This document shows, piece after piece, positions 10,330 through 58,563 of a stretch of 64,000 bases of DNA (its first letter is position 1; the number at the start of each line of letters is the position of its first letter). The translations under genes and the position numbers were made by a program. A model generated the notes under the pieces. That model saw only the letters and a program-made list of their open reading frames with translations, was not told the DNA's origin and ran no database searches. The stretch is from Treponema sp. (GTDB lineage: Bacteria; Spirochaetota; Spirochaetia; Treponematales; Breznakiellaceae): contig WQXG01000001.1 of the NCBI GenBank assembly GCA_009784975.1, positions 1 to 64,000 of the forward strand, in the 5' to 3' direction.

Positions 10330-10463
10330 AGAATAGCGCAGCATTATTACCCCCAACTATAGAAGTATCTCAATGCCGTACGCATTATGGGGATAAACCA
10401 TACATGCGCTAATCTGAAATGTGAAGCTCTTGAAATTCCGCGAAGCGGCTACAGTTGTTTTCT

Positions 10464-10599
10464 CCACCGGTTTCAGAAATGTATGCCCAGAAACATACTT
10501 GAGGGGTGTCGGGTGGCAAAAAGTGCCGTGTGCGGAGCATACGGTGCTTTTTGGCCCCCGACAGGACCCCAAGCATAATCTTTAGGCATACATTTCTGG
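10464..10599 (+). repeat. dispersed palindromic element, copy 1
   Basis: Outer arms CAGAAATGTATGCC/GGCATACATTTCTG; long inner stem with GGA loop; matches 42181-42315. Confidence 0.8.
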
Positions 10600-33388: not shown

Positions 33389-33482
33389 GCGCAGAGACGC
33401 AAAAACGCAGAGAACAAGGAGATAATAATTCTCTCTTTATTCTTCTCTGCGATCTCTGCGCCTCTGCGTCTCTGCGAGAGGT
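33389..33482. repeat. CGCAGAGACGCAGAG-type interspersed palindromic repeat
   Basis: gcgcagagacgcaaaaacgcagag ... ctctgcgcctctgcgtctctgcgagagg. Confidence 0.75.
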
Positions 33483-38619: not shown

Positions 38620-38677
38620 CCAGAAATGTATGCCTAAAGATTTTGCTTGGGGTCCTGTCGGCGGCCATTAAGCGCCC
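38620..38677 (-). repeat. dispersed palindromic element, copy 3 (fragment, inverted)
   Basis: CCAGAAATGTATGCCTAAAGATTTTGCTTGGGGTCCTGTCGGCGGCCATTAAGCGCC matches reverse complement of right half of copies 1/2. Confidence 0.8.
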
Positions 38678-38769
38678 ATAAAAATGGTAGTTGCTGCCAG
38701 TTTTCTATTTTTCTTGCTAAATGAACAAAAAAATGATAAGATAAACTACCACGATAAAGGAGCGAAAGC

Positions 38770-40296: not shown

Positions 40297-40773
40297 ATGG
40301 AAATAATTGTTTATTATTCGCCTAAAAAGTACAGAGTTATCGCGATTAGAGATTATCTAATAAAAAACAACATCCCGGTAACAAGTATAAAACTTGGTTT
40401 TTATATGGCAATGCGTTCCGGAAGGAGCGGAAGAAATGATGAATTAGATATATCAATCGAAGATTTTAACGAAGAATTAAATGATGCTCAGGTTTTTGAG
40501 ATATATATTGACGAAAAACATGAAGACAATGTTCAGCAATTATTTGAAAACTTTGATATAGAAACATTTTTTAACGACTGTATTTATAAATCAAATGATT
40601 ACGACGAAGCATTTGAAGTATGCCGGTTATTAAATAAAAGCGGTTTTAAATGCGACGACGTTTTTACCGTCACCGATATAGACACAAATACCGAAGAATA
40701 CTTATTATTCATCGACCCGGAAATAAAAGAAGACGCCATGAAAATAATTGAAGAATATCAAGCAAAAAGGTAG
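40297..40773 (+). CDS. hypothetical protein
   Basis: Long ORF, promoter directly upstream. Confidence 0.7.
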   Translation: MEIIVYYSPKKYRVIAIRDYLIKNNIPVTSIKLGFYMAMRSGRSGRNDELDISIEDFNEELNDAQVFEIYIDEKHEDNVQQLFENFDIETFFNDCIYKSNDYDEAFEVCRLLNKSGFKCDDVFTVTDIDTNTEEYLLFIDPEIKEDAMKIIEEYQAKR

Positions 40774-40811
40774 CAGCTACCATTTTTGGAAGTGGTAGCT
40801 GCTACCTTTTT
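40764..40811. terminator. bidirectional intrinsic terminator, 19-bp perfect stem between convergent genes
   Basis: AAAAAGGTAGCAGCTACCA...TGGTAGCTGCTACCTTTTT. Confidence 0.9.
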
Positions 40812-42150: not shown

Positions 42151-42180
42151 TTTCTATCTGACTACGGCAAGGTTGCCCAC

Positions 42181-42315
42181 CCACCGGTTTCAGAAATGTA
42201 TGTCCAATAACATACTTGAGGGGTGTCAGGGGCATTAAGTGTCGTGTGCGAAGCGCACGGCGCTTAATGGCCGCTGACAGGACCCCAAGTAAAATCTTTA
42301 GGCATACATTTCTGG
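42181..42315 (+). repeat. dispersed palindromic element, copy 2
   Basis: Same outer arms and layout as 10464-10599; inner stem covaries. Confidence 0.85.
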
Positions 42316-51784: not shown

Positions 51785-53395
51785 ATGAATATACGAGTAC
51801 GCTATGCGCCTTCCCCGACAGGTCTTCAGCACGTGGGCGGGATACGAACTGCCCTTTTTAACTATCTTTATGCCCGTTGTAATGGGGGCAAATTTATCCT
51901 CCGCCTGGAAGATACGGACAGAACCCGGTTTGACGAAAGTTATGTAAAAAACCTTTATGATACATTTGAATGGCTGGGCTTTAAATGGGACGAAGGTCCG
52001 GTACCTGACAACGAGGTCGAAGACCGAAGTTTCCAGTCTCGCGGCGGGCTTTATAGTCCTTATATTCAATCCGAGCGTACTGTTTTGTACAAAAAGTATG
52101 CGCAGGAACTGCTCGATAAAGGACAGGCTTATTATTGTTTTTGTTCCGCGCAAAGGATAGAAGAAGTGCGCCTGCAAAGGGAAGCCGCCCGTTCCTCGCA
52201 AAGCGGTTATGATCGTTTTTGCCGGAATATCGATCCGCAGGAAGCTGCCAAAAGAGCGGCATCAGGCGAGGTTTGCACCGTCAGGCTGAAAATCCCGCTC
52301 GGCGAAACTACGCTTTTTAATGACCATCTGCTTGGCGGCATTGAATGGAAAAATGATGATGTTAACCCCGATCCTGTACTGTTAAAATCTGACGGGTTTC
52401 CTACCTATCATCTTGCGAATGTGGTAGATGATCATTTAATGGAAGTGACTCATGTGTTACGTGCACAGGAGTGGCTTGCGTCAACTCCGCTTCATGTAAT
52501 TATGTACCGCGCTTTTGGATGGACGCCGCCTGAATTCTGCCATCTTCCGATGGTAATGGGCCAGGACGGAAAAAAACTTTCCAAACGGCACGGAGCGACA
52601 AGTATTGATGAATTCCGAAAGCAGGGATACCTTCCCGAAGCGCTGATAAATTACATTGCTCTTTTGGGCGCATCCTACGAGGAAGGCAAAGATGTTTACA
52701 CGTTAGGTGAACTTGCGCAGCATTTCAGCCTTGAAAAACTGAATAAAGCACCCGCTGTTTTTGATTATAAAAAGCTGGAATGGTACAATGGCTTGTATAT
52801 ACGGATGAAAAGCGATGAGGAACTTGCTGCTCTTTGCTTGCCGTTTGCTGTTGAGGCTGGACTGATTGGGAAAATTGGCGAAGAGGTTCTCGCGGAGGCG
52901 CGGAGACGCAGAGGACGCGGAGAAGAGGAAGAAGAAGAGGGAATAGGGAAGAGGGGAGAAGAGGAAGAGGAAGAGGAAGAGGGGAGAGAGGGGTTTGCTA
53001 AGTTTGTTGGGGCGATGGGGCTTGTTAGGGAGAGGTTGGTTTTGCTTGGGGAGGTTACAGAGAAGATTGGCTACTTGTTTAAGGAGCCGGAGATTCCTGA
53101 AGCACAGGAATTTATTCCCAAAAAGTGCGACCTTGCCAAAACGATTGAACTTTTGCAGACAGGAATGGAACTTGTGCGCCGGTTGGCAGAAATGCCGGAT
53201 GATGAGCAGGCGGAAAATTTTATAAAGGCGGAAGCGGAAAAACGAGAAATAAAACTTGGAGACCTTATGATGCCGCTGCGTGTTGCCATTACGGGCAGCC
53301 GTGTTAGTCCTCCGCTGTTTGGGTCTTTGCGGCTACTTGGAGCGGAATGTTCTGCGAAGCGGGTGCAAAATGCGCTTGATATGCTAAATAAATAG
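51785..53395 (+). CDS. gltX: glutamyl-tRNA synthetase (start MNIRVRYAPSPTG) with low-complexity insertion
   Basis: RYAPSPTGLQHVGGIRTALFNYL; DGKKLSKRHGA. Confidence 0.97.
   Translation: MNIRVRYAPSPTGLQHVGGIRTALFNYLYARCNGGKFILRLEDTDRTRFDESYVKNLYDTFEWLGFKWDEGPVPDNEVEDRSFQSRGGLYSPYIQSERTVLYKKYAQELLDKGQAYYCFCSAQRIEEVRLQREAARSSQSGYDRFCRNIDPQEAAKRAASGEVCTVRLKIPLGETTLFNDHLLGGIEWKNDDVNPDPVLLKSDGFPTYHLANVVDDHLMEVTHVLRAQEWLASTPLHVIMYRAFGWTPPEFCHLPMVMGQDGKKLSKRHGATSIDEFRKQGYLPEALINYIALLGASYEEGKDVYTLGELAQHFSLEKLNKAPAVFDYKKLEWYNGLYIRMKSDEELAALCLPFAVEAGLIGKIGEEVLAEARRRRGRGEEEEEEGIGKRGEEEEEEEEGREGFAKFVGAMGLVRERLVLLGEVTEKIGYLFKEPEIPEAQEFIPKKCDLAKTIELLQTGMELVRRLAEMPDDEQAENFIKAEAEKREIKLGDLMMPLRVAITGSRVSPPLFGSLRLLGAECSAKRVQNALDMLNK
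52887..52992 (+). repeat. interspersed CGCGGAGACGCAGAG / GAGGAA repeat inside gltX coding frame
   Basis: ttctcgcggaggcgcggagacgcagaggacgcggagaagagga matches reverse complement of 58443-58480 type repeat. Confidence 0.75.
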
Positions 53396-54824: not shown

Positions 54825-56060
54825 TTATGCCCACAATGCCGCTGTGGGAACAGCAAGCATATTTTCTGCGAATTGAATTGTTCTGTCTCCTGAGTATAAA
54901 ACAATTCCCGTAAATAGTTTTTGATTTTTAAGTATATTTTCTATAAACCATTCCTGCGGGGCAAAATCACTTTTAGACACATTATGCCCGGCTTTCACTT
55001 CTATACCAAGTATCGCCCCGTCTTCGCGTTCGATAATAAAATCAATTTCTTTATCTGTTCTGTCACGATACTGATAAAGCGTATATTGATTGTCAAGATC
55101 GACAAGAGTCGCCAATTCCTGAAAAACAAATGTTTCTATCAATTTACCGGATCGATCCTGATTCATAAAAACCTCTTTAGGATTCCAGCCAAGCACAGAT
55201 GTCATAATCCCGGTATCTGCTGCATAGAACTTTGCTCTTTTTCCAACACGTTCATAATCTGTTTTTAGCCAGGGAGATACTTTTTCAAACATAAACATTG
55301 AAACAAGCGTGTTGATATAACTATCAAGCGTTATTTTATTTATGGACATAGCCGTTGTTATTTTTGAAACTTCCATAAACTTTGCAGACCATGAAGCCAA
55401 AATACCGATTAAATCCTGCAAATCATCTTTTCTGCGGATATTGGAAATATCTTTTAAATCACGTTCAACTATCGCCTGCAAATAATCTTTATGCCAGTCT
55501 TTTCTGTGCCGTATAGTTTTAAGCGCAACTGCTTCGGGATAACCGCCGCGAAAAGCAAGGTCGATAATGGCTTCCTTATTGTATCCTGTTATCCTGTCCG
55601 GAAAATCCCGATTAAACGCACGAGTCAAAAAAACAGGCTTTTTATGGAGCGTTTCCCCGACAGTTAACTGGTGCAAACGCATATATTTAACCCGCCCTGC
55701 AAGGCTGTCTGAAATAGCCGGTAGGGTAAGAATATTGGCGGAACCTGTAAGCAAAAACTGTCCCGCCCTGTTATTTTTATCAACAACCAGTTTTATTTCC
55801 GGAATGAGTTTAGGCGCTTTCTGGATTTCATCAATAACCATTGTACCGGCTTTATTTCTGACAAATCCATTAGGATCCTGCAATGCAAAATCCAATATAT
55901 CAGTTTCATCCAGAGATCGATAATCGTCCGTCTTGGAAATAACCTGCTGCAAAAGCGTAGTTTTACCTGTCTGCCTGGCACCGGAAACAACCACAATACG
56001 CCGCAATTTCAGCGCTTCCTTAACACACCCAGCCTGCCATCTTTTATATTCATCAGCCAT
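54825..56060 (-). CDS. AAA_14/DUF4143 ATPase (start at MADEYKRWQ preferred over 56078)
   Basis: VVVSGARQTGKTTLLQQV; VIDEIQKAPKLIPEIKLVVD; C-terminal EIDFIIEREDGAILGIEVK. Confidence 0.9.
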   Translation of the reverse strand: MADEYKRWQAGCVKEALKLRRIVVVSGARQTGKTTLLQQVISKTDDYRSLDETDILDFALQDPNGFVRNKAGTMVIDEIQKAPKLIPEIKLVVDKNNRAGQFLLTGSANILTLPAISDSLAGRVKYMRLHQLTVGETLHKKPVFLTRAFNRDFPDRITGYNKEAIIDLAFRGGYPEAVALKTIRHRKDWHKDYLQAIVERDLKDISNIRRKDDLQDLIGILASWSAKFMEVSKITTAMSINKITLDSYINTLVSMFMFEKVSPWLKTDYERVGKRAKFYAADTGIMTSVLGWNPKEVFMNQDRSGKLIETFVFQELATLVDLDNQYTLYQYRDRTDKEIDFIIEREDGAILGIEVKAGHNVSKSDFAPQEWFIENILKNQKLFTGIVLYSGDRTIQFAENMLAVPTAALWA

Positions 56061-56151
56061 GCAATAAGTATAATACAAGTCCTGCGAAAAGTATAGTAGA
56101 GGGCTTGCGAAAAGTATAGTAGAAGGGGTGCGAAAAGTATAGTTGGGGAGG
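56060..56151. repeat. 4 x 23-bp direct repeats (iteron-like), TGCGAAAAGTATAGTAGA...
   Basis: Units begin 56060, 56083, 56106, 56129, exactly 23 bp apart. Confidence 0.9.
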
Positions 56152-58442: not shown

Positions 58443-58563
58443 TCCCTCCGCGCCCTCCGCGTCTCTGCGCCCCCGCGAGAACCTCTCCCACTTTCCCCCC
58501 GTTCGTGCCCGTTCGTGTGGTTCGTGGTAGAATCTCTTCCCTCTTCCCCTGTGCGTTCTGGTG
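58443..58563. repeat. interspersed CTCTGCG/TTCGTG repeat copy A
   Basis: ctccgcgtctctgcgcccccgcgagaacctctcccactttccccccgttcgtgcccgttcgtgtggttcgtgg. Confidence 0.7.

Follow-up and report, generated by a model that had tools for sequence, protein, structure and literature searches.

A spirochaete family of dispersed hairpin repeats with a near-invariant bulged motif: candidate MITE-like elements, probably recognized as a folded single strand

The window analyzed here (the whole stretch of 64,000 nucleotides) carries two full-length copies of a palindromic repeat belonging to a family of short, gene-free elements in spirochaetes. The copies of this family are dispersed, occur in nested and modular forms, lack any orientation bias relative to genes, and conserve a structure that is specific to one strand. 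Our literature searches returned no description of such a repeat family, so as far as could be found it is new to the literature. We consider it somewhat probable that the family consists of non-autonomous, MITE-like mobile hairpin elements, each recognized in its folded single-stranded state by a factor acting in trans.

A sequence-only reading of the window had described two palindromic copies with nested inverted arms, and both are present on the plus strand as it noted (Table 1). The exact outer arms lie at 10474-10487/10585-10598 in copy 1 and at 42191-42204/42301-42314 in copy 2, where the left arm reads CAGAAATGTATGTC and gives one T-G pair, and the inner arms CTTGAGGGGTGTC/GACAGGACCCCAAG are alike in both copies. 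The compensatory stem changes reported between them (GTCG..CGAC versus GTCA..TGAC and AAAAAG..CTTTTT versus ATTAAG..CTTAAT) were also found. Each copy folds into one long hairpin that is much more stable than shuffled sequence, with z of about -9.3 as DNA and -9.7 as RNA for copy 1 and of about -10.7 as RNA for copy 2, and none of 200 shuffles was equally stable in either case. That reading overlooked a third match, half a copy lying on the minus strand. The neighbors of copy 1 are a PIN-domain gene and a cyclase gene pointing towards each other, and those of copy 2, in the same arrangement, are an HTH gene and one of unassigned family. The same reading had given weight to a GNA mini-hairpin at the tip, of the form GCGNAGC, which did not hold up: this tip is found in 6 of the 11 full copies of the source genome, in 16 of 75 over four genomes, and in no copy of the genomes G029 and G007. 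As the tip is not conserved, we rejected the mini-hairpin as a key feature, and its presence is incidental.

Table 1. Positions in the window of the hairpin element copies, their left extensions and the two halves of the conserved motif.
Feature	Coordinates	Strand	Remarks
Copy 1 of hairpin element, full-length core	10474..10598	+	Covariance model 118.9 bits, E 4.6e-24
Copy 2 of hairpin element, full-length core	42191..42314	+	Covariance model 121.0 bits, E 1.4e-24
Right-half copy (without left half)	38621..38676	-	Third match in the window
Left extension of copy 1	10434..10473	+	Common to the copy on contig C35 (L004); identity begins ~39-40 bases left of the core
Left extension of copy 2, ending GCCCACCCACCGGTTT	42166..42190	+	Common to the copy on contig C8 (L003)
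Left half of invariant motif, GGGGTGTC, copy 1	10503..10510	+	Columns near-invariant across genera
Right half of invariant motif, GACAGGACCCC, copy 1	10560..10570	+	GGA bulge 10564-10566; columns near-invariant across genera
Left half of invariant motif, GGGGTGTC, copy 2	42220..42227	+	Columns near-invariant across genera
Right half of invariant motif, GACAGGACCCC, copy 2	42276..42286	+	GGA bulge 42280-42282; columns near-invariant across genera

The window holds other repeats as well. A palindrome, GGTAGCWGCTACC, occurs at 40769-40806 and 38686-38698 and in the flanks of several source-genome copies of the element; lying beside elements and half elements, it may represent another repeat family. 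A 53-nt repeat, CTCTCCCACTTTCCCCCCGTTCGTGCCCGTTCGTGTGGTTCGTGG, is present four times between 58480 and 62137 at a spacing of 0.6 to 1.6 kb, and there are also tandem 23-bp repeats of the TGCGAAAAGTATAGTAGAGG type at 56060-56148, and CGCAGAGACGCAGAG-like units that form inverted repeats at 52882-52922 and 58446-58486 and at 33390-33476.

A dispersed family had been predicted from the two window copies, and this is confirmed by 11 full-length copies in the source genome and by the occurrence of the element in 26 of 39 genomes of the genus. A 136-base query matched the 2.6-Mb source genome 37 times in a blast search, opposite-strand readings included, and the full-length copies, counted with a covariance model trained on 32 copies, are accompanied by roughly 15 shortened, lengthened or half copies (mini forms of ~71 to 75 nt, long forms of 226 to 233 nt with an extra ~110-nt module, and halves). 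Copy number within this one genus ranges from none to tens per genome, a figure left at "tens of copies" because the match counts include opposite-strand readings. Two relatives carrying the element are Treponema MAGs, presumably from the termite gut, to judge from the isolate name. The covariance-model search of related spirochaetes that the earlier reading had proposed found copies in 12 of the 81 genera sampled in the order (24 of 241 sampled genomes), all within the same family, and a second model, derived from copies in those other genera, recovered single copies with the motif intact in two genomes of another family, at a seemingly identical locus. The repeat is thus neither restricted to the window copies nor decaying at random without covariation. 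Sequence searches found no match to the element in phages or plasmids, on which ground an origin from either was rejected; a pattern search of viral contigs gave 0 matches, and a short-motif search gave 14, about the number expected by chance by our estimate and none with matching long stems. In genome G063 there is an array (L346 and L347, G063:C1:1190000-1228900) of six same-orientation copies within ~22 kb, each directly ahead of a shortened version of a large repeated gene whose C-terminal part varies, an arrangement that resembles displaced gene tips. This array is best explained if a unit already containing the element was duplicated in tandem.

Pairing is maintained throughout the family while much of the sequence changes. 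Within the genus, the 37 pairs form in 97.1% of cases and 21 of them show two-sided changes, with none of 500 shuffles reaching any of these measures; among 38 copies from other genera, 95% of the pairs form and 31 of the 37 have two-sided changes (A2 to A4, being alignments fitted to the covariance model, lean towards the structure; A1 was not fitted). The cross-genus covariation score was 0.652, against 0.201 for shuffled alignments (0 of 500 as high) and no more than 0.154 when the alignment was slid. Across genera, covariation extends to each of the 13 outer pairs and each of the 13 pairs in the innermost stem. Both the outer and the inner stem have entirely different sequences from genus to genus yet remain paired: the outer arm CAGAAATGTATGCC of the window copies is replaced by GAAAAGAATATGCC, GGGAAGGGGGC, CACAGAAGCATGG or CTGAAAAGCGTAC in other genera, with a matching partner each time. 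Covariation is also strong between copies inside the same genomes, where we counted 79 two-sided changes. The middle of the element, 5'-GGGGTGNC...GNCA-GGA-CCCC-3', is near-invariant, its two halves GGGGTGNC/GNCAGGACCCC carrying a GGA bulge that is unpaired and present on one strand only. This central motif is what all copies have in common, because the outer ends, interiors and extensions differ among copies and species.

The bulge gives the hairpin a polarity that also appears in its imperfect pairs. For a double-stranded palindrome, changes are expected to yield G-T and A-C mismatches equally, and we observed 101 G-T against 10 A-C pairs (40:9 without the three fixed wobbles) and 60:15 family-wide. 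When each variant is counted once per genome the ratio is 29:8 (P = 7.5e-4), and for singletons it is 21:8 (P = 0.024), the P values being indicative, since the sequences are related and the matches were picked by score on the same strand. The G-T excess and the one-sided GGA bulge therefore identify the plus strand of the element as the selected strand. This bears out the earlier observation that non-Watson-Crick positions are mostly G-T wobbles on the plus strand, and the proposed selection for a folded single strand is backed by that excess together with the covariation within the genus, between same-genome copies and across genera.

The unit ends are best seen in G029, where the closest copies lose identity at constant points, ~33 bases to the left and ~25 bases to the right of the core, and the unit is therefore of ~175 bp with long terminal inverted repeats. 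Between these ends lies the core hairpin, a different conserved interior, the core with a long insert, or nothing at all. Upstream of full units there are left halves of older ones, as though units had inserted into each other, and copies form nested, modular palindromes. In the source genome, some pairs of copies have only the bare core in common and others also the left extension, and in other species the outer ends differ from those of G029. Among the other interiors, the strongly conserved one read GTGGTTATAAAAAAGTGAACTACAC...AGACCGTCAGCC, enclosed by the terminal repeats at eight G029 loci (L238-L241, L244, L245, L250 and L252), folds far better than shuffles (z -8.9). A similar insert of ~110 nt within the core stem, with conserved pieces GAGATAAAGG...GAGCGCGCGCC, is found at L011, L026, L080, L100, L251 and L254; long copies with this insert occur in three or more species, and the insert resembles a further structured module. 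The flanks inspected contain no consistent target-site duplication or TA at the termini, the exact ends being approximate.

The copies are placed without regard to the direction of neighboring genes. By crude ORF calls, four genomes gave 18 copies between convergent genes, 20 in tandem in the same orientation, 16 in tandem in the opposite one and 9 between divergent genes, and the same classes in other genera held 9, 8, 8 and 7. As their orientation relative to genes is random, a cis-acting RNA, a terminator or a UTR element was rejected. Copies are mostly at different sites in different species, and a few have one gene as neighbor in more than one species, with side and strand unchanged. This is clearest for copy 2: the HTH gene upstream of it is 76% identical to a gene of G007 that likewise has an element downstream. 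Such common sites could represent old insertions, hotspots or selected copies, and are too few to decide among them. The HTH gene was considered as a partner of the element and rejected, its family being common in the genus and the single G007 homologue with the site establishing no general link.

No mobilizer was identified among the transposase families searched (Y1, IS110 and IS630). A genome search did not detect Y1 transposases in the copy-rich G029, and within the genus they occur in 17 of 39 genomes, namely 11 of the 26 with the element and 6 of the 13 without (P = 1); only 1 of 22 sampled Y1 loci had a weak match to the element nearby. TnpA-REP/RAYT was thus discarded as the mover, as were IS110 and IS630, for which searches of G029 and of the source genome gave no match, and none of the G029 loci inspected has a transposase between its ends, although in incomplete MAGs such as these a failure to detect a transposase is not proof of absence. 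From the first description of the repeat as a "REPIN/MITE-like or structured-RNA family", the MITE-like assignment can be retained and the REPIN/TnpA-REP one finds no support.

Target duplication and a partner transposase are typical of MITEs. Our elements are short dispersed repeats that have terminal inverted repeats and contain no transposase, and no partner with matching ends was found among the Y1, IS110 and IS630 families in G029 or in the G029 loci read; we call them MITE-like, not MITEs, because neither that transposase nor a target duplication was found. Like ERIC and other bacterial MITEs, they are dispersed, intergenic, non-coding in function and transposase-free, and each forms one large imperfect hairpin. 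ERIC, however, is a conserved enterobacterial sequence of 127 bp that ends in TA with TA duplication (PMC2229807), and by this description it differs from the spirochaete repeat, in which stems change wholly between genera and the central motif alone is fixed. The YPAL or RU-2 elements of Yersinia, long palindromic intergenic repeats of 168 bp (PMC2229807), are of similar size and share internal inverted repeats, the lack of a terminal TA, a composition that is not A+T-rich and targets near dyad symmetry. YPAL, though, duplicates 3 to 26 bp of its target (PMC2229807), while no consistent duplication was seen here, and the spirochaete element spans at least 12 genera and has an invariant one-sided bulge and nested interiors. 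REPINs consist of two inverted REPs, each a hairpin, adjoining a RAYT (Y1) gene (PMC3116915). They too are non-autonomous mobile hairpins thought to be recognized as single-stranded DNA with strand polarity, but our element is one hairpin with pairing between halves that do not fold alone, and it shows no association with Y1 genes, by either adjacency or co-occurrence. The resemblance to the attC sites of integrons is limited to the way they work. In attC, paired stems are free in sequence, bases unpaired on one strand give polarity, the tip is variable and GTT cores lie at the ends. The spirochaete outer ends, in contrast, vary freely between genera with no conserved GTT core, the conserved part is the middle and not the ends, and no cassette arrays were seen in the genus.

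The unit is a long imperfect palindrome of about 120 to 200 bp, one strand of which folds into a hairpin with the bulged motif GGGGTGNC/GNCA-GGA-CCCC set between stems that are free in sequence if paired. In the mechanism that we propose, a protein encoded elsewhere would recognize this motif in the folded strand, which could be either single-stranded DNA, exposed as the element is replicated or excised, or a copy made of RNA. The recognized unit would then be pasted into intergenic DNA in either orientation, and the swapping of interiors and ends between units would generate the nested and modular forms. The whole of this mobile reading, which we favor by a modest degree, draws on the tens of copies per genome, their mostly different sites and random orientation, the covariation, the near-invariant motif with its one-sided bulge, the G-T excess, the fixed unit ends with varied interiors in G029, and the lack of matches in phages or plasmids. 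Counting against it are the failure to detect Y1, IS110 or IS630 transposases in G029, the lack of a consistent target-site duplication or of a pair of empty and filled sites among the loci seen, and the few neighbor-gene sites common between species, which would also fit long retention or site selection.

The main rival, in our judgment rather unlikely, is a multicopy structured RNA family, whose copies would be transcribed and whose hairpin would act as a small RNA or protein-binding element, or would spread via a reverse-transcribed RNA intermediate. The strong covariation, a selected strand rich in G-U pairs and the inner stem's fixed tandem wobble all suit an RNA, as does the RNA folding energy of copy 2 (-70.6 kcal/mol for the selected strand versus -58.5 for the other). 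The source genome also has about six clear copies without the left half versus one without the right, which would fit 5' truncation in reverse transcription; in G029, however, it is left halves that accumulate, the opposite of such truncation. The lack of gene-orientation bias speaks against a cis role in neighboring transcripts. No Rfam family matches the window at the gathering score, and permissive searches of the element loci gave just sub-threshold matches to unrelated families, so that a known structured RNA was rejected.

We regard it as improbable that the copies are selected fixed elements, for instance binding sites for a nucleoid or replication protein, that are kept at many places and rarely moved. 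Such sites would account for a motif near-invariant over a whole bacterial family, for the copies beside the same gene across species (copy 2 and G007 above all) and for the single copies at one apparent locus in another family, but they agree poorly with a copy number that varies so widely in one genus, with sites mostly not common between genomes, and with exchanged interiors and nested units that resemble insertion. Even less credible, and in our opinion very improbable, are passive palindromes, in which hairpin-templated correction or gene conversion would keep the arms complementary without selection for the fold. Arm correction would also produce many two-sided changes such as the 79 within genomes, but it predicts equal G-T and A-C mismatches, in conflict with the 29:8 and 101:10 observed, and no strand-specific bulge, whereas the GGA bulge is near-invariant across genera.

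Many of the palindromic repeats described in bacteria come from a single genus or from a few related ones, and their mover is often not established. The span of at least 12 genera allows us to separate what is kept in this element, a hairpin bulged on one strand, from what is free, namely both stems, the tip and the ends. More specifically, and only tentatively, we suggest a spirochaete-specific miniature element whose sole fixed part is the bulged hairpin, moved by a recombinase or reverse transcriptase that reads the folded single strand, with units that nest and swap interiors; if this is true, one recognition hairpin spreads while all surrounding sequence is replaced. The bulged motif would provide a specific bait for the protein that moves or uses the element, and with the covariance models many intergenic sites of spirochaete genomes that are so far unexplained could be annotated.
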